Source: an uncultured Acetobacteraceae bacterium
GTDB lineage: Bacteria > Pseudomonadota > Alphaproteobacteria > Acetobacterales > Acetobacteraceae
Direction of reading: 5' to 3'
Length of the DNA stretch: 57,629 nucleotides
Assembly: GCA_903877125.1 (NCBI GenBank)
Contig: CAIRCM010000092.1
Span: 1-57,629, forward strand
The position numbers were made by a program, and so were the translations under genes. Shown here in pieces: positions 41,081 to 50,534 of this stretch; position 1 is the stretch's first letter, and every line of letters starts with the position of its first letter. Below the pieces are notes generated by a model. The model saw only the letters and a program-made list of their open reading frames with translations. It was not told the origin of the DNA and did no database searches.

Positions 41081-41351
41081 AGCGTGATCGCCAGAGGTGG
41101 AACCACACGGCGGCGTGAATCACGCGATCAAACAAAGACTTATACCGACCTGCGATGATTTGGACTCTCTCGACCGTCCAGTCTCCACCGTCATGCCGGC
41201 GTATGCCGGTATCCACGCCTTTGTTCCAGCACGAAAATCGTGGATGGTGGCATGCACCGCCATGACGTGAAGACGACCCTGGACGGTCGAATTCAAGGCG
41301 GACTGGTACTATAGAGCACGATAGGGTCAACTTGACCCGATCCCGCTCTAG
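41078..41351. repeat. Family A repeat interrupted by a nested element (locus 3)
   Basis: Left half from the TAG stop of sthA (GTAGAGCGTGATCGCC) to about 41142, right half a hairpin with GAGCACGATAGGGTCAA against TTGACCC and CTCTAG, ending at 41351. CTAG at 41348-41351 supplies the stop codon of the kinase on the other strand. Between them lies a nested element. Confidence 0.82.
41143..41308. mobile_element. Nested MITE-like element (family B, copy 2)
   Basis: The ends (TACCGACCTGC and GCGGACTGGTA) are imperfect inverted repeats. Inside, perfect 12-base arms TCGACCGTCCAG lie at 41170-41181 and 41279-41290 in inverted order. The central core begins CGTCATGCCGGCGTATGCCG, the same as in the 6090-6257 copy, but with a more diverged second arm. 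Confidence 0.6.
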
Positions 41352-44300
41352 TCCGATCGTGTCGCGCTTTCGAGCGACGATCGAACCAGCCGCATCTCCC
41401 GCCCCAGGGCATCCAATGCGGCGGCGCAGGTCGCGTGCAGCCCGTCCTTCGCGGCAGCCTCGATCTCGGCCGAAAGACTGGCCAGGGTCGCCGCCCCCAC
41501 GGCCAGGGAACCGCCTTTCAGCTTATGCGCCGCCGCCGCCGCGGCCGCCATATCGCCCCTGATCAGCGCACCGTCGATATCCCGTGCGGAATCCCTCGCC
41601 GTATCGATGAAGTGGCGCACCAGGGTGTCGATCGCATGCGGGTCGTCGCCCACCCAGTCCTTCAGCCGTTCCCGGTCGATGCCCGACCGTCCCGAAGCCG
41701 CCGGGCCGTTCTCCCGCCGCCCAACCTCGACCCAGCGAAGCAACGTTTCGCGCAGTCGGGAAAGGCTGACCGGCTTGGCGATATAGGCGTCCATGCCGGC
41801 GGCGAGGCAACGTTCCTCCTCGCCCCGCATCGCATTCGCCGTGACCGCGACGATCGGCGTGCGCGTCGCCTCTGCTCGGGCTTCCCGCGCGCGGATTTCC
41901 CCGGCAAGGCCATAACCATCCATCCGCGGCATGTGCATGTCGGCGAGCACGGCGGCGTAGCGGCCAGGTTGCCACAGCGTCAAAGCGGCCACGCCGTCCT
42001 CGGCCGTGTCGGCCCGCAGGCCGAGGAGACCGAGTTGATGGACCAGGACCTTCCGATTGACCGGGTGATCGTCGACCACGAGGATTCGCCCGCCGATCGC
42101 CGTCAGGTGCCCCATGACGGGCGTCGGTTCAGACTGGATACCGGCGCTCGGAGCGGCCCGCAGTCGGAGGTGTACGGTAAAGACCGACCCTTCCCCCGGC
42201 GTGCTGGTCGCCGTCACGTCGCCGCCCATCAGCTGAGCGAGACGCCGCACGATCGACAACCCCAGGCCGGTGCCGCCGAATTTTCTGGTCGTGGAGCTGT
42301 CGGCCTGCGCGAACGGCTGAAAAAGGCGGGCTTGCTGTTCGGCGTCCATGCCGATCCCCGAATCGGCAACCGTCAGCGTAACGCGTTGCTGACCATCGCC
42401 CAGCGGTTCGGTACCCGCACGAACCTGGATGCTGCCCCGTTCCGTGAATTTCACCGCGTTGCCCAGCAGGTTGAACAGAATCTGCCGAACCCGCGTGGGG
42501 TCGCCGATCAGCGCGTCCGCCGATCCGGGATCGATCGTCGCGCCCATCCGGATGGATTTCGCCGCCGCCGGCGCCCGCAGGGTGTGCAGCGTACCCGTGA
42601 CGATCTCGATCAACGAGAAAGCCGTCTCCTCCAGCTCCATCCGTCCGGCTTCGATTTTCGAGAAATCCAGCACGTCGTCGATGATGCGCAGCAGCGATGT
42701 CGCGGACTCCCGCATGATCGCCACCGTGCTCCGCTGGTCGTCGTCCATGCGCTGATGCTCAAGCACATCCATCATCCCCAAAACACCGTTCATCGGGGTG
42801 CGGATCTCGTGGCTCATGGTTGCCAGGAAGGTCGATTTCGCCTGGTTCGCGGCTTCCGCCTCGGCCCGGGCGGCCTCCGCGGCGTCGCGTTCCAGAACGA
42901 TGCGCTCTTCCTGGTTTTTCAGGGCGGTGACATCGCGATGGGTCAACAGGCGCCGGCCGTCCGGCAGCACGATCGAATTCGCTTCGACCCATCGCCCGTT
43001 CATTCGGCGCCGCGCGGGCCGATGGGTAGCGCCGGCCGCGAAGGCGCGCATCAGCGCGTCGATCTCCGCTTCGATCGTATCGTGGCTGAGCGGAATAAGC
43101 CCACGCTCCAACTGCCAGCGCAGGGCCTGCGCGATATTGGTGTAGGGTATGAATTCATCGCGCGGGAACGCATTCATCTCGAAGATCGCGTTGTTTCTTA
43201 GCACCATCGTCCCGTCGGCTTCGCACAGCGCGACGCCGTCGGTCATGTTGTCGAGGATGGTTTGCAGCAGCCCGCGTTCGTGGGCCAGACGGTCTTCCTG
43301 GATTTTCATCGCCGTGACGTCGCGGAACACGCCCAGCGTTCCGCCATCGGCGGTTCGGTGGAACGTGCCCTCCACCCACCTTCCGTCGGGCGTGGCACGC
43401 AATTTCGGCTCCCCGTCGGCGCGGTGGAACCGGTCGATGGCGGCCGAGCGGAAGGCGTCGTCGACCAGGCCGCGATCGACCATCCCATCCATCATCGCTT
43501 CGAAACGCCGAAGGCGGGCAAGACGCTCCGCGGAGGTTTGCTGGATATCGCAGAACGCCTTGTTGGCGTACAGCCAGTCGCCGTTGCCGTCCCACAGGAT
43601 CACCCCGTCGGCCATATTGTCCAGGACGGTTTCCATCAGCAGTCGCGCCTGTTCGGTCGCATCGCGGGCCTGCCGAAGTTCAGCCTCCCGATTCTTGGAC
43701 TCGGTGACGTCGCGGTGCGTGACCAGGCGGCGGCCGTCGGGCAGGACACGCCATTTCACGTCGACCCACCGCCCGTTCGGCCGCTGCGTTGTCGCGCTGT
43801 AGGGCTTCCCCTGAACGAACTCGCCGAGGAAGTGTTCGGTGATCGCCTCGGGCGTGCGGGGATCGTTCGGCATATGCCCGTGCCTGGCCTGCCAAAGGAT
43901 GGCGTCGTGCAAAGTCCGGAAGTGCACTCTGGCCTCCCACGGCACGGCGTTGATTTCGTACATCGCATCGTTCGCCAGCGCGATGTCGCCATTGGCTTCG
44001 ACCAGGCCCATGCCGTCGGGCATGTTGCTCAGCACGGCTTCCATCAGGGCGCGTTCGCGCTCGACCTCATGACGGGCGATCTGCTGCTCGTCGAACAACC
44101 GCGCGGTTTCGATGGCGATGGCAACGTGATCGCCGAAGATCGCAACCTGTTCGATCTGGCGGTCGGTAAACGGTTGGACGGCGGAGCGGCTCAGCGCGAT
44201 GGCACCGATCGGCACGCCGTCGCGCAGCAAGGGCACGCCGAGCATCGACCGCAGTCCACCAAGACGCGCACGATCGACCGGCGCGTATCCAGGTTCGGCC

Positions 44301-46393
44301 CAGGCGTCGGCGATGTGGGCTTGACGACCGGTCAGCAAAGCCCGGCCGATCAACGTGTCCTGCCCCGGCACCAGCGCGATGTTGCGGATCAGCGCCTCGT
44401 GCTCGGGCAACATGCCGACGCCCACCCCGAAGCGGCAAACCCCGTCCTGATAGCGGTAGATGATGGCCTTATCGGCCTGACAGAGGTCGGTCGCATAACG
44501 AAGAACCTCGGTCAGAACGCTGTCCAGGTCCGACGCGGAACGGCTGATCGCACGCAGCGCGTTGGCGAGCGCCGACTGGAATTCGAGGGACTCCTGCAAA
44601 TCGGTCGATCGTTGGGTCAGAGCCAGTTCTTTCTGCTTCAGCTCGGTGACGTCGCGATGGATGAGCAGGGTGCGCCCGCCTTGGAGGGCGCGGGTCTGGC
44701 GTTCGACCCAACGGTTGTTCGGGCGCAGTACAGCGGGGCGAAAGGAATCGCCGGCCGACAGGCCCGCCATGCGGCACCGCACCAGCGCTTCAAGTTCCTG
44801 CTCGGAAAGTGTTGGCTGTGCCTGCCGCGCAAGCCAGCGGACCGCATCGGCGACATTGCCGACATCGATCTGATCGCGCGGAATGCCGTTGATCTGATAG
44901 GCAGCGTCGTTGACTTGCAGAACCTCGCCGTCGGGCGCGAACAATGTAACGCCATCGGTCATGTTATCCAGCACGACCTGTATCGTTGCCCGCGACTGCT
45001 CGGCGGCATCCCGAGCCTGCTGGAGTTCGAGTTCCCGCTGTTTGAGATCGGTGATGTCGTGATGGGTCACCAAACGGCGGCCGTCGGGCAGGGACGACCA
45101 ACGGACGTCCAGCCACCGACCGTTGGGACGCTGGCGGGTTACCTTGATGACATCGGTGGAGCGGAAGCGCTGCATCGCTTCCTGGACATCTTCTTCCTCG
45201 TTCTCATGCTGACGGGGGATCATGCCGTTCGCGACCTGCCAGGACAGGCTGTCGTAGACGGTTCGGAACGTCTGGAACACATCCCGCGGGTAGTCGTTGA
45301 TGTCGTACATCGCGTTGTTCCAAAGCGCGATCTCGCCGTTCGGCTCGTACAAAGCCATGCCGTCCCGCACATTGTCCAGGATCGCGCGCATCAGGGCGCG
45401 CTCGCGTTCGGCTTCCTCCTGGGCGCGGCGCACTTCTTCCAGCAGGCGAGCGTTTTCGATCGCGATCGCCGCCTGATCGGCGAAGCCCGTGACCATTTCG
45501 ATCTGGCGTTCGGTAAACGGCTCAACTGTTTTTCGGGCAAGGGCGATGACGCAAATCGGCTCCCCATCGCGCAGCAGCGGCACGCCCAGCAGCGAGCGGA
45601 CCGACCCCGCCCGGGCTTCGTCCTTGCCGACATAGTTGGCATCGGCCAACACGTCGACGATCTGAATGGTTCGGCGTTCGACGACCGCGCGTCCGGCGAC
45701 GGTGCGGTTGTTTGGGAACAGCGGGCGCCCGCGAATAACTTCCTCATACCCTGGCGGCGTGTTGTGACCCGCTTCGAAGCGGCAAGCGCCATCCTGGTAG
45801 CGGAACAGAATGGCGCTCTCCGCGCCGCACAGTTCCGCTGCCTTGGTCACGACCGTCTGCAGCACCGATGGCAGATCGAAGGCCGAGCGGCTGATCGCCT
45901 GTAAAACTTCGTTCATCGCCGCGGCGTAGGCGAGGGTTTCGCGCAGCTCGTTTTCCTGCCGCTTCAGTTCGGTGATGTCGTTGTGCACCGTCATGGTTCG
46001 CCCGCCAGGCAGCGAAATGAACCGGTGCTCGAAAATGCGGCCGCGATATTCCCGAATCATCGGCGTGCCGTCCGCGATGGCCTGACGGTTCAGGGCGGAG
46101 GCAACGCTTTCCTCCATCGTGTCGTGAGTCAGCGGCTGCCGCCCGGTTTCGAATTGCCAGCGAAGCCGTGCCTCCGATGTCCGCAATGCGGCGATATCGT
46201 TCCGCTCGCAGCCCATCACGGCGAGGTAGGCATCGTTGGCGAGGCGAACACTGTCGTCGGGATCGACATAGGCGATCGCGGTCGGCAGGCTGAGGACGAC
46301 TTCCCGCAGTATATCCGCTTCGTCTTCGGGTGATGGCGGGGGGCTGCGGCCGGCGGAGATGTCCGCGCTGGCGAAGGAGCGTACAGTTGGCAT
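41348..46393 (-). CDS. Giant hybrid histidine kinase with six PAS and two GAF domains, receiver and HPt
   Basis: A protein of about 1680 residues with no clear membrane segments. Order: PAS, GAF (about 165-325), PAS, PAS, GAF (about 620-780), PAS, PAS, PAS, then HisKA with the phospho-accepting His in FLATMSHEIRTPMNG (residue about 1195), the ATPase domain, a receiver with RILVVDDHPVNRK and VLADMHMPRMDG, and an HPt with AAAHKLKGGSLAVG. The chain holds a complete internal phosphorelay. Several PAS units repeat the motif DGRRLVTHRDVTE almost word for word, showing internal duplication. ATG 46393 or 46423 could be the start. Its stop is inside a repeat. It is divergent from a response regulator. 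Confidence 0.9.
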   Translation of the reverse strand: MPTVRSFASADISAGRSPPPSPEDEADILREVVLSLPTAIAYVDPDDSVRLANDAYLAVMGCERNDIAALRTSEARLRWQFETGRQPLTHDTMEESVASALNRQAIADGTPMIREYRGRIFEHRFISLPGGRTMTVHNDITELKRQENELRETLAYAAAMNEVLQAISRSAFDLPSVLQTVVTKAAELCGAESAILFRYQDGACRFEAGHNTPPGYEEVIRGRPLFPNNRTVAGRAVVERRTIQIVDVLADANYVGKDEARAGSVRSLLGVPLLRDGEPICVIALARKTVEPFTERQIEMVTGFADQAAIAIENARLLEEVRRAQEEAERERALMRAILDNVRDGMALYEPNGEIALWNNAMYDINDYPRDVFQTFRTVYDSLSWQVANGMIPRQHENEEEDVQEAMQRFRSTDVIKVTRQRPNGRWLDVRWSSLPDGRRLVTHHDITDLKQRELELQQARDAAEQSRATIQVVLDNMTDGVTLFAPDGEVLQVNDAAYQINGIPRDQIDVGNVADAVRWLARQAQPTLSEQELEALVRCRMAGLSAGDSFRPAVLRPNNRWVERQTRALQGGRTLLIHRDVTELKQKELALTQRSTDLQESLEFQSALANALRAISRSASDLDSVLTEVLRYATDLCQADKAIIYRYQDGVCRFGVGVGMLPEHEALIRNIALVPGQDTLIGRALLTGRQAHIADAWAEPGYAPVDRARLGGLRSMLGVPLLRDGVPIGAIALSRSAVQPFTDRQIEQVAIFGDHVAIAIETARLFDEQQIARHEVERERALMEAVLSNMPDGMGLVEANGDIALANDAMYEINAVPWEARVHFRTLHDAILWQARHGHMPNDPRTPEAITEHFLGEFVQGKPYSATTQRPNGRWVDVKWRVLPDGRRLVTHRDVTESKNREAELRQARDATEQARLLMETVLDNMADGVILWDGNGDWLYANKAFCDIQQTSAERLARLRRFEAMMDGMVDRGLVDDAFRSAAIDRFHRADGEPKLRATPDGRWVEGTFHRTADGGTLGVFRDVTAMKIQEDRLAHERGLLQTILDNMTDGVALCEADGTMVLRNNAIFEMNAFPRDEFIPYTNIAQALRWQLERGLIPLSHDTIEAEIDALMRAFAAGATHRPARRRMNGRWVEANSIVLPDGRRLLTHRDVTALKNQEERIVLERDAAEAARAEAEAANQAKSTFLATMSHEIRTPMNGVLGMMDVLEHQRMDDDQRSTVAIMRESATSLLRIIDDVLDFSKIEAGRMELEETAFSLIEIVTGTLHTLRAPAAAKSIRMGATIDPGSADALIGDPTRVRQILFNLLGNAVKFTERGSIQVRAGTEPLGDGQQRVTLTVADSGIGMDAEQQARLFQPFAQADSSTTRKFGGTGLGLSIVRRLAQLMGGDVTATSTPGEGSVFTVHLRLRAAPSAGIQSEPTPVMGHLTAIGGRILVVDDHPVNRKVLVHQLGLLGLRADTAEDGVAALTLWQPGRYAAVLADMHMPRMDGYGLAGEIRAREARAEATRTPIVAVTANAMRGEEERCLAAGMDAYIAKPVSLSRLRETLLRWVEVGRRENGPAASGRSGIDRERLKDWVGDDPHAIDTLVRHFIDTARDSARDIDGALIRGDMAAAAAAAHKLKGGSLAVGAATLASLSAEIEAAAKDGLHATCAAALDALGREMRLVRSSLESATRSD

Positions 46394-46534
46394 GATTGGG
46401 CGATCCTGGTCCACCCGCAGCATGTCACATCGTCGCCGACCCGTCAGCGTGTGTTTGTATCGTCTGTATCGCGACTTCGCATCGGTGGCGCCGAAACGCG
46501 AATCGTGCTTGACTGGAGGTTACGGCGAAGGGGC

Positions 46535-47296: not shown

Positions 47297-48280
47297 ATGT
47301 CAGGTGCCAATTCCTTCAAATTCGTGATGCTGCCCCCGCAGTCCGAAACCACGCGCGCCTGGGGCAAGCGGCTGGCGGACTCCGTCCCGGAAGCGCGCGT
47401 CGTCATCGCCGAGGACGCCGATACCGCGGCACGGGAGATCGTGGACGCCGAAGGCGCGTTCGGCTGGTTGAACCCCGATCTGCTCGGTGCGGCGAAGAAG
47501 CTGCGCTGGCTGCAGGCGCCCCAGGCCGCCCCGGCGGCGGGCTATTATTTCCCCGAACTGGTCGCCCACCCGCTGACGGTCACCAATTTCCGGGAAATCT
47601 TCAACGACCATATCAGCGCCCACATCATGGCCTTCGTCCTGGCTTTCGCGCGTGGCCTGCACGTCTTCATCCCCCAGCAGTTGCGCCGGGAATGGAAGAA
47701 GTCCAGCCAGGAATCCGGCGACGTCGTGCACCTTCCCGAAGCCACCGCGCTGATCGTCGGTGTCGGCGGCATCGGCGCGGAAGCCGCCCGGCTGCTCGCC
47801 GCGTTCGGGGTGACGGTGCTCGCGACCGATGCCCGCCGAACCTCCGCACCCGAGGGCGTGGCCGAACTGCATAAACCGGAGGCGCTGGATGAACTGCTGC
47901 CGCGCGCCGATTTCGTGATCCTGACGGTACCGCACACCCCGGCGACCGAAGGCTTCTTCAACGCCGAACGGTTCGGGCGGATGAAGAAGACCGCATTCTT
48001 CATCAATATCGGCCGGGGCATGACGACCCGCCTTGACGATCTGGTCGGGGCGCTGAACGCCGGCACGATCGCCGGCGCGGCATTGGATGTCTACGAGATC
48101 GAACCGCTGCCGTCGGACCATCCGCTCTGGACCATGCCAAACGTGCTGCTGACGCCGCACATGGCCGGTCACGGCCCGTATCTGAACGATCGACGCTACG
48201 AGATCATGGAAGAGAATTGCCGCTCCTTCGCCGCCGGCCGGGAACTGCGCAACGTCGTCAACAAGGGGTCGTGGTTCTGA
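47297..48280 (+). CDS. D-isomer-specific 2-hydroxyacid dehydrogenase (first of a pair)
   Basis: A 327-residue NAD(P)-dependent dehydrogenase with VGVGGIGAEAARLLAAFG (cofactor motif), FINIGRGMTTR (catalytic Arg), YEIEPLPSDHPLW (Glu) and LLTPHMAGHG (His). Its stop overlaps the start of a second dehydrogenase as TGATG, so they are translated together. The pair precedes the selenoprotein-B-like gene. Confidence 0.87.
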   Translation: MSGANSFKFVMLPPQSETTRAWGKRLADSVPEARVVIAEDADTAAREIVDAEGAFGWLNPDLLGAAKKLRWLQAPQAAPAAGYYFPELVAHPLTVTNFREIFNDHISAHIMAFVLAFARGLHVFIPQQLRREWKKSSQESGDVVHLPEATALIVGVGGIGAEAARLLAAFGVTVLATDARRTSAPEGVAELHKPEALDELLPRADFVILTVPHTPATEGFFNAERFGRMKKTAFFINIGRGMTTRLDDLVGALNAGTIAGAALDVYEIEPLPSDHPLWTMPNVLLTPHMAGHGPYLNDRRYEIMEENCRSFAAGRELRNVVNKGSWF

Positions 48281-49266
48281 TGGCCGATACGCTCGTCGTC
48301 ACCTTCCCGCAGGACGCCAAGGGAAGACCGTTCATCGACGATGCCTTGGGCGGGGCGGCCGAGGTCGTCTACCTCGCCGATCTCGACGACGATCAGGCGC
48401 GAGCCGCCGCACTTCGATCCGCGACGGCGGTGTTGGCCCGCAATACGGCCAAGGAGTTGCGTCCGCACGAGGCGGCATTGCTGGAGCATGCGAAACTGAT
48501 CCAGTTCATCAACGCCGGCGTCGATTTCGTGCCACTGAACGCCTTCCCGCCCCAGGTGCCGATCGCCTCCAACGGCGGCGCCTATGCCGAACCGATGGCC
48601 GAACACGCGCTGGCGATGGTCCTGGCAGCGGCGAAACGGCTGCTGGTCGAGCATGAGGCGCTGAAGACCGGCGCGTTCAACCAGCACAAGCGCAATCGCA
48701 CGCTGGCGGGTGGCGTCTGCGGAATCCTCGGCTTCGGCGGCATCGGCGTCGCCACCGCTCGGCTGATGCGGGCGCTCGGTATGAAGATCCACGCGATCAA
48801 CCGGCGCGGCGCCTCCGACGCGCCGACCGACTGGATCGGCACGCCCGCCCAACTCGATACGCTCCTGGCAGCGGCGGATGTGCTGATCATCGCGACGCCG
48901 CTGACACCGGCGACCTTGGGATGGATCGGCGCTCGGGAATTGGGCCTGATGAAGCCGGACGCGATACTCGCGAATCTGGCGCGCGGGGAGATCGTGGATG
49001 AAGCGGCGCTGTTCGCCCATCTTCAGGCCACCCCCCGGTTCCAGGCCTGTATCGATGCCTGGTGGATCGAGCCGGTACGACACGGTTCGTTCCGCATGGA
49101 CCACCCCTTCCTGACGTTGCCGAACGTGATCGGCTCCCCCCATAACTCGGCCTCCGTGCCGGGCACCGGGGAGACTGGATTGCGGCGCGCGGTCGCCAAT
49201 ATCCGACGCGCGCTGGCGGGGGAGACGCCGCTTTATCTCGTGGATGCGGATCAGCGGATGATGTGA
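48280..49266 (+). CDS. D-isomer-specific 2-hydroxyacid dehydrogenase (second of a pair)
   Basis: A 328-residue dehydrogenase with the cofactor motif ILGFGGIGVATARLMRALG, LANLARGEIVDEAALF (Arg), DAWWIEPVRHGSF (Glu) and IGSPHNSASVPGTGE (His). It has diverged far from its neighbour. Together they could form a heteromer or act on successive substrates, but sequence does not say. The selenoprotein-B-family gene starts 60 bases downstream. Confidence 0.85.
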   Translation: MADTLVVTFPQDAKGRPFIDDALGGAAEVVYLADLDDDQARAAALRSATAVLARNTAKELRPHEAALLEHAKLIQFINAGVDFVPLNAFPPQVPIASNGGAYAEPMAEHALAMVLAAAKRLLVEHEALKTGAFNQHKRNRTLAGGVCGILGFGGIGVATARLMRALGMKIHAINRRGASDAPTDWIGTPAQLDTLLAAADVLIIATPLTPATLGWIGARELGLMKPDAILANLARGEIVDEAALFAHLQATPRFQACIDAWWIEPVRHGSFRMDHPFLTLPNVIGSPHNSASVPGTGETGLRRAVANIRRALAGETPLYLVDADQRMM

Positions 49267-49325
49267 GCGCACTTCCCTTCGCGCGCCGTGCGGACCATGA
49301 TGCGATAGATTAGGGAGCATAATGA

Positions 49326-50534
49326 ATGGCACGCCTTGAGGACATACCCGGACCAACGCGAACGGCCGTGGCAACGATCGATTGCCCCGCGTTCGAGACA
49401 ACCCCGTTCGTATCCGGTCCGCCGCTGTCCAAGCGCCGGGTCGCGATCGTCAGCAGCGCCGCGCTGATCGAGCGCGGGGACAAGCCCTTCGATTTCGGGT
49501 CGGGCGAATGCCGCCCGCTGCAACGGAGCGCGAATGCCGACGATATCCTGATCAGCCATGTCTCGATCAACTTCGATCGGGCCGGGTATCAGCGCGATAT
49601 CAACGTCGTCTACCCGATCGACCGGTTGAAGCACATGGCGATCGACGGGTTGATCGGCAGTGTGGCGAACACCCATTACACGGTCATGGGCTCCACCGAT
49701 CCGGCCGCGATGGTCGAATCCGCGGATTTCATCGCCGCCGCCTTCAAGGCCGATCACGTCGACGCCGTCGTCCTCGCCCCCGTTTGACCGCTGTGCACCC
49801 GCGCCGTGAGCGCGATGGCACATATGCTGGAAGAACGCGGCCTGCCGACGACGGTACTGGCTCTGGTATTGCCCCAGGTCGAAAAGACCCGCCCGCCGCG
49901 CGCCTTGATGGTGCCGTTCATGCTCGGGCGCCCATTGGGCGAACCGGGGGACAGCGATTTCCAACGCCGGGTTCTGCTGCAGGCGTTGCGGCTGCTGGAA
50001 CGGACGGATGGCCCGGTCGTTCTGGAACACTTCCCCGATGACAACCCGAGCCATTTCGACCGGCCGGGTTGGGAGCCGTCGGTGACACTCCCGCCACCAG
50101 GGACCTATGCGGACGCGGACGAATGGGAAACGGCCTTCCGCGACGAACTGGAGGCGGTAATCCCAGCCTGGGAGCGGTTCGAAGCCCGCTTCGGCCGGAC
50201 CACGGTCGGGTTGTCGGGTCAGCCACTACAGGACTGGCCGGACTGCGCGGCCTCGGTCCTGCGCGGCGCGCTGCCGGTGGTGGCGCCGTTCGAATCGACC
50301 GCCTTGTCGGTGCGGTTCATGTGCGATGACATCAAGGCGATGTACGGCGAAGCCGCGCAGGCCGACGGTCCCGCCCCATCGGCGGGGCAGATCGACCGGT
50401 GGTTCTGGCGGCAGACCGTCGCCGGTCAATTGCTGATCGCCTTGCGCGCAAAGGCAATGGAAAGCCCGAACAACGGGCTGAAGACGGTCGGCGGCCGGTT
50501 CTTCGTGCCGGCGCCGTATTTGCCGAAAGGTTGA
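49326..50534 (+). CDS. Glycine/betaine/sarcosine/D-proline reductase selenoprotein B family protein, with UGA-encoded Sec
   Basis: One continuous frame of 402 codons with a single internal UGA at 49785-49787 (codon 154). The part before it (MARLEDIPGPTRTAVATIDC, then SHVSINFDRAGYQRDINVVYP and GSVANTHYTVMG) and the part after (CTRAVSAMAHMLEERGLPTT, then PFMLGRPLGEP) together match one GrdB-type protein. The UGA falls in APV-U-PLCTR, where this family has Sec (or Cys) in a U/C-x-x-C-T-R redox motif. A SECIS-like hairpin follows directly. Read as ordinary code it would be two genes, 49326-49787 and 49806-50534. Family members outside clostridia are poorly understood; a redox enzyme is inferred. 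No selA/B/C/D is in the window. Confidence 0.82.
49793..49821 (+). promoter_or_regulatory. SECIS-like hairpin behind the UGA codon
   Basis: Stem GTGC (49793-49796) with GCAC (49818-49821) and CGCGC (49800-49804) with GCGCG (49810-49814), separated by a 3x3 internal loop, with apical loop CGTGA at 49805-49809. The loop lies 17 bases after the UGA and carries a G-U, as bacterial SECIS elements do. Assigned by eye; GC-rich DNA forms hairpins easily. Confidence 0.6.

Follow-up and report, generated by a model that had tools for sequence, protein, structure and literature searches.

A TGA-interrupted gene in an Acetobacteraceae genome

The window analyzed here—57,629 nt of contig CAIRCM010000092.1 (GenBank assembly GCA_903877125.1), from an uncultured bacterium of the Acetobacteraceae—contains a frame that begins with an ATG at 49326 and ends with a TGA at 50532–50534, with a single TGA inside it (Table 1). 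When the internal UGA is translated as U, the motif at codon 154 reads PV-U-PLCTR. An earlier note on this DNA had described one TGA separating two halves in the same frame; its coordinates are exact, and the 402 codons do lie in one frame. The note had also foreseen that ordinary annotation would split the gene, and ORF calling indeed yields two fragments, 49326–49787 (153 aa) and 49806–50534 (242 aa), the second beginning at the earliest start codon of the downstream frame (GTG at 49806, codon 161). Its partner Cys "two residues on" needs a small correction: the UxxC motif stands, with the Cys three residues after Sec and two residues in between. From the sequence of the locus and its relatives, we estimate a probability of about 0.93 that 49326–50534 is a single selenoprotein gene with selenocysteine encoded by the UGA at codon 154.

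Table 1. Features of the locus, in window coordinates
Feature	Position	Strand	Basis
D-2-hydroxyacid dehydrogenase, upstream gene	47297..48280	+	PF02826, 176.8 bits; 87–93% identity in L051–L053
Second D-2-hydroxyacid dehydrogenase	48280..49266	+	PF02826, 141 bits; 82–88% identity in L051–L053
AGGGAG, likely ribosome-binding site, 8 nt 5' of the ATG	49312..49317	+	Sequence reading
Predicted selenoprotein CDS	49326..50534	+	402 codons plus stop; Sec would be codon 154
In-frame TGA, putatively read as selenocysteine (Sec154)	49785..49787	+	TGA at the same codon in 22/23 loci
Putative bacterial SECIS hairpin	49788..49830	+	Folds, synonymous constraint, published criteria
Codon of Cys157 in UxxC, the Cys presumed to resolve	49794..49796	+	Invariant in the 22-sequence alignment

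Directly upstream lie two genes for D-2-hydroxyacid dehydrogenases, the nearer of which (frame open from 48217, first ATG at 48280) ends 59 nt before the start of the predicted selenoprotein. Both are kept in its three closest relatives (L051–L053), and a counterpart of the nearer one was found in none of the 19 other loci compared, ten of which cover only ~1.5 kb on each side. Gene neighbors are conserved among the closest species only, and there are no fixed partner genes. Farther upstream, on the reverse strand, 41348–46423 encodes a hybrid sensor kinase of 1691 aa in which PAS and GAF domains recur and which also has response-regulator and Hpt domains.

Relatives carry UGA or Cys at codon 154

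How widespread is this gene, and what do its relatives encode at codon 154? A protein database search returned 1197 matches, of which 120 were listed and 12 of these fetched. Among the matches listed, 118 of 120 are short (231–247 aa, 58–60% of the query); the ten short ones fetched are all C-terminal pieces, eight of them beginning MAHMLE, 3' of the UGA. The other two, P0003 and P0006, are full-length proteins with Cys at position 154. A second search, with query residues 1–160, found four proteins. P0124 and P0126, which come from other contigs and are known from protein predictions only, stop exactly one residue before the Sec position, their frames having started in other sequence; such ends indicate that the gene is mispredicted in more than one way. 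Since the database relatives listed are nearly all short, and those fetched C-terminal pieces, ordinary annotation would miss the full protein as well as its active residue: a little-known branch of an established enzyme family, with a rare amino acid and in little-studied bacteria, may thereby have been hidden as two genes.

We therefore turn to DNA-level counts, where the codon itself is visible. Some match was present in 32 of the 299 genomes sampled from the order, and the long form in 16 of them: 15, the window's own counted, encode a full-length relative with TGA at codon 154 (one, L031, has an extra TAG at codon 389), and the remaining one, G118, carries a full-length locus (L036, 37–38% identical) that has Cys there and is free of stops. 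A scan of named genomes added 13 loci, all in metagenome-assembled genomes (MAGs), 12 labelled Acetobacteraceae, Rhodospirillales, or Asaia bogorensis (two) and one Thermoleophilaceae. After removal of duplicates (L051, L055, L056, L058, and L060, whose 183 bases around the UGA equal those of L022, L026, L027, L028, and L030) and of L063, which covers the C terminus only, 23 distinct full-length loci remained (L021–L036, L052, L053, L054, L057, L059, L061, and L062). Codon 154 is TGA in 22 of these and Cys in one (L036); put otherwise, the window shares its TGA with 21 of 22 other loci, at 34–88% identity. A TGA at the same codon in 22 of 23 loci is not explained by chance or sequencing error. 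The alignment that the earlier note had proposed as a check accordingly finds Cys or the Sec codon at this position in 23/23 full-length loci and in the two database proteins. In a 22-sequence tree, the Cys pair P0003/P0006 groups with L029, at a support of 0.91, from within the clade of UGA forms, so their Cys looks derived, as expected for a Sec-to-Cys replacement. The full-length form was absent from the 397 other genomes of our phylum sample. The Thermoleophilaceae MAG holds a long UGA form (L062:5129–6283) that is 34–36% identical and has its own version of the hairpin.

Selection across the UGA and a putative SECIS element

Is the TGA instead a true stop, so that the locus is a pseudogene or encodes two proteins translated independently of each other? 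ORF finding does show two frames, and the short database relatives (118/120 among the matches listed; the ten fetched all C-terminal) would suit such an arrangement. However, pairwise dN/dS against six relatives is low on either side of the UGA (0.08–0.25 upstream, 0.11–0.25 downstream). Furthermore, residues 155–160, which precede the first possible start of the second frame and would be translated only by read-through, are conserved: across 22 sequences P155 and C157 do not vary at all, and T158 and R159 hardly do. Together with the first start at codon 161, this conservation fits a single read-through product. The UGA also alternates with Cys and with no other codons, and all 15 sampled genomes with the gene have selA and selB (see below). 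A true stop is, in our judgment, extremely improbable; comparison among relatives shows both halves to be under purifying selection, as one frame.

If the UGA is decoded as selenocysteine, a SECIS hairpin should mark it. The candidate has a GC upper stem (49800–49804 paired with 49810–49814) and an apical loop, CGUGA, at 49805–49809. Criteria given for bacterial SECIS elements are a loop of 3–9 nt, an upper stem of 4–16 bp, a G within the first two loop positions, a distance of 16–37 nt from the UGA, and a minimum free energy of at most −7.5 kcal/mol (PMC13188914). The candidate lies within all of these bounds, with a 5-nt loop, a 5-bp stem, G at loop position 2 followed by U, a loop start 17 nt after the UGA, and −17.6 kcal/mol over 46 nt. 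Its folding energy is unexceptional against shuffles in such GC-rich DNA (z of −2.07, −1.11, +0.12, and −1.81 for 61, 46, 76, and 81 nt, respectively). Covariation is weak: in the 13 loci used for counting stem pairs, one pair changed on both sides. Owing to GC repeats in the stem, pairing persists in 83.3% of cells when partners are shifted by −2 columns and in 71.8% when they are shifted by +2; the +2 shift scores 0.130 for covariation vs. 0.124 for the unshifted register, with two both-side-changed pairs. The lower stem differs among relatives. In 21 UGA loci (L062 and L036 were left out), synonymous constraint reaches its maximum for the gene at codons 153–163 (z 4.3), just 3' of the UGA; the ten most constrained 11-codon intervals all begin at codons 151–160, and codons 160–161 (GCC, GTG) are identical in 21/21. 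Synonymous constraint is better evidence for the putative SECIS than energy or covariation. In L062, whose label belongs to a family of another phylum, the stem is retained, one G-C being replaced by A-U (both sides changed) and one pair being G-U. The hairpin sequence is lost at the Cys locus L036.

Selenocysteine machinery and paired SelBs

Can the host decode UGA as selenocysteine? The window's own genome (5.15 Mb, 97.94% complete, 2.85% contamination) holds selA, selB, selC, and selD, the genes whose presence the earlier note had made a check on its claim: selA occurs once, selD once over the cut-off, and selB as two full-length genes over the cut-off, and a single tRNA-Sec (anticodon tca) adjoins selA. 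Rfam gave one further tRNA-Sec hit over the cut-off, which was rejected because ARAGORN calls it tRNA-Ser. Across the 299 genomes of the order, matches at E of at most 1e-60 place selA in 53 and selB in 52, and both occur in all 15 genomes with the long UGA gene (Fisher p about 1e-12, related genomes being treated as independent). Likewise, at E of at most 1e-10, tRNA-Sec was found in 23 of the 32 genomes with any relative (15/15 with the UGA gene, 8/17 others). The Cys-carrying genome G118 had no match to selA, selB, or tRNA-Sec at the same thresholds. We infer that SelB would bring Sec-tRNA(Sec) to the hairpin-marked UGA; because of that delivery, the ribosome would then produce one 402-residue protein.

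Two selB matches occurred in 6 of the 52 genomes (the window's own, G220, G222, G284, G176, and G011, the second in G011 being below the cut-off). Five of these six have the long UGA gene (Fisher p 0.006, again with related genomes treated as independent), and at the thresholds used each shows a single selA and a single tRNA-Sec. In the window's genome the two are divergent full-length genes on contigs C96 (L001) and C115 (L002). Contamination is disfavored as their source, since the pairing recurs in several genomes. In a tree of 47 of the 58 SelB matches (48 were picked; the one from G213 lacked an open frame), one clade of ten members, including the C115 copy, is restricted to genomes in which a PrdB-like UGA gene, long or short, is present, and the C96 copy falls in a different clade, near the SelBs of genomes encoding the formate dehydrogenase FdhA. 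Six UGA genomes have SelBs solely outside the C115 clade (G213 is unplaced); a C115-type SelB is therefore not required for the long gene. Genomes with two SelBs offer a test case for whether such copies share out the SECIS elements.

A long PrdB/GrdB-like protein

To which family does the protein belong? The earlier note had assigned it to the GrdB family. The superfamily part of that assignment stands: the first half scores 32.4 bits with PF07355 (GRDB) against a gathering cut-off of 22, over profile positions 275–345 of 347 only. The nearest named model, by contrast, is not GrdB but PrdB, the selenoprotein subunit of D-proline reductase (TIGR04483). This model matches both halves (59.6 and 19.6 bits separately, 95.7 joined), bearing out the note's view that they are one protein; from the PF07355 and TIGR04483 matches together, both fragments can be assigned to one protein of this superfamily. 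The joined score does not reach the equivalog cut-off of 300, nor does the 48.9 bits with TIGR01918 reach 65.45, and the protein is below the cut-offs of all five matching NCBIfam models.

PrdB, in which Sec is encoded by UGA in a UxxC motif (PMC13188914), is homologous over residues 33–228, with UxxC in the same place. The window's protein differs from it in having ~170 further C-terminal residues, outside the PrdB and GrdB matches, and in its narrow spread, its named relatives being Acetobacteraceae/Rhodospirillales MAGs and one Thermoleophilaceae MAG. GrdB, GrdF, and GrdH (PF07355, TIGR01917, TIGR01918, NF040794, NF040795) belong to the same superfamily around the Sec motif, but the protein matches their profiles only from about position 270 on. 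UxxC selenoproteins of the PrdB family, which we liken to ours by description, are also common in marine datasets: 42 genes are reported from the Sargasso Sea (PMC1088965) and 235 Sec and 110 Cys forms from GOS (PMC2398784). Closer to hand are 312-aa paralogues in the window's genome and other Alphaproteobacteria (NCPVC/NUPVC), with a PrdB-like domain and Cys or sometimes TGA at the same place. The paralogue L094 (contig C12, 1272–2210, reverse strand; Cys, NCPVC) is 28% identical, follows the motif with HQT where the long protein has TRA, and is without the helical domain at the C terminus; the frame adjoining it is presumably a CaiB-type CoA-transferase. The PrdB/GrdB superfamily and the Sec machinery are known; what may be new here is the long subfamily and the paired SelBs. 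The subfamily is set apart by scores well short of the equivalog cut-offs (L062, which passes TIGR01918, being an exception), its added domain, its narrow spread, and its link with FdhA absence. We found no description of such a long subfamily or of two SelBs in one bacterium in the open-licence PMC literature (supplements aside), which is a weak absence.

Might the protein nonetheless be a genuine reductase subunit of the D-proline or glycine type, acting together with a pyruvoyl partner (PrdA/GrdE)? PrdB is its best named match, JGI names the relative P0123 "D-proline reductase (dithiol) PrdB," and L062 passes the TIGR01918 cut-off of 65.45 with 71.4 bits and reaches 145.6 with the PrdB model. 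Against this stand the gap between 95.7 bits and the PrdB cut-off of 300 and the lack of PF09338 (the PrdA pyruvoyl partner) among 19 neighboring frames scanned and in the window's genome, the latter a weak point, as the control genomes were likewise without a match. We consider a partner-dependent subunit of this kind quite unlikely.

Structure and a possible mechanism

An AlphaFold2 model built from 22 sequences (mean pLDDT 89.4) comprises an alpha/beta domain (about residues 32–240) and a helical C-terminal part (264–393). Residue 154 lies at the N terminus of helix 155–170, with Cys157 one turn further. The structure searches turned up no close solved structure; the fold matches, of broad Rossmann or periplasmic-binding types, span 32–240. 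Like many redox selenoproteins, the protein has its UxxC motif at a helix N terminus after a strand. This arrangement, together with the lack of fixed partner genes, could mean that the protein is a general selenol-thiol oxidoreductase that reduces peroxides or disulfides rather than cleaving a C-X bond. However, its domain sequence resembles PrdB/GrdB, not thioredoxin, and glutaredoxin chains were recovered in the structure search at E of 0.27–0.3 only. Such a general role seems to us possible, if doubtful.

More broadly, the window's protein is probably a Sec/Cys reductase, as predicted from motif and superfamily. In glycine and sarcosine reduction, Sec attacks a C-N bond polarized via a Schiff base to a carbonyl group close by, and a GrdB-like operon has been proposed for C-F bond cleavage of monofluoroacetate (PMC10838667). 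In the protein described here, Sec154 would attack an electrophilic small metabolite and reductively cleave a C-X bond; Cys157 would resolve the Se adduct as a selenenylsulfide, which thiols would reduce; and the reaction would proceed without a pyruvoyl partner. We offer this partner-free C-X cleavage, with Cys157 resolving, tentatively and at somewhat less than even odds. As to the substrate, the two upstream D-2-hydroxyacid dehydrogenases are the sole neighbor hint to function that the sequence may offer.

FdhA and retention of the selenocysteine trait

Why do these bacteria keep a costly Sec apparatus? For Alphaproteobacteria, Betaproteobacteria, and Pseudomonadales that decode Sec, a 2006 survey named FdhA as the sole selenoprotein (PMC1794560). 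We searched 53 genomes for FdhA (TIGR01553, E of at most 1e-100) and found it in 31: 3 of the 15 with the long UGA gene vs. 28 of the 37 other selB genomes. In 26 of the latter 28, the FdhA frame has a TGA within it. FdhA and the long UGA gene thus tend not to co-occur, and 12 of 15 genomes have the long PrdB-like protein without FdhA. The window's genome is one in which the best FdhA-type match scores 132.8 bits vs. a cut-off of 814.2, with no stop in it; FdhA was not found in G118 at the same threshold.

The rarity of FdhA in its genomes suggests that the long protein may help explain Sec retention, and it is a candidate reason for Alphaproteobacteria without a selenium-dependent FdhA to keep the machinery. 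That it is a main reason why the Sec trait persists in Acetobacteraceae without FdhA we would put at even odds. The fuller proposal—that a long PrdB/GrdB-like selenoenzyme acting alone maintains Sec in FdhA-less Acetobacteraceae, some of which also have a second divergent SelB that shares the single tRNA-Sec and SelA—is speculative and rather unlikely to hold in every part.

Other selenoproteins presumably keep Sec as well, since both the long UGA gene and FdhA are missing from 9 of the 37 other selB genomes. Seven of these nine (G113, G013, G069, G116, G236, G251, and G286) matched none of the three candidates—long UGA gene, short UGA gene, or FdhA—at the thresholds used and may hold other selenoproteins. 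The remaining two, G206 and G264, carry a short PrdB-like UGA paralogue, which also occurs beside the long gene in five of the 15 genomes (G154, G176, G222, G228, and G290).
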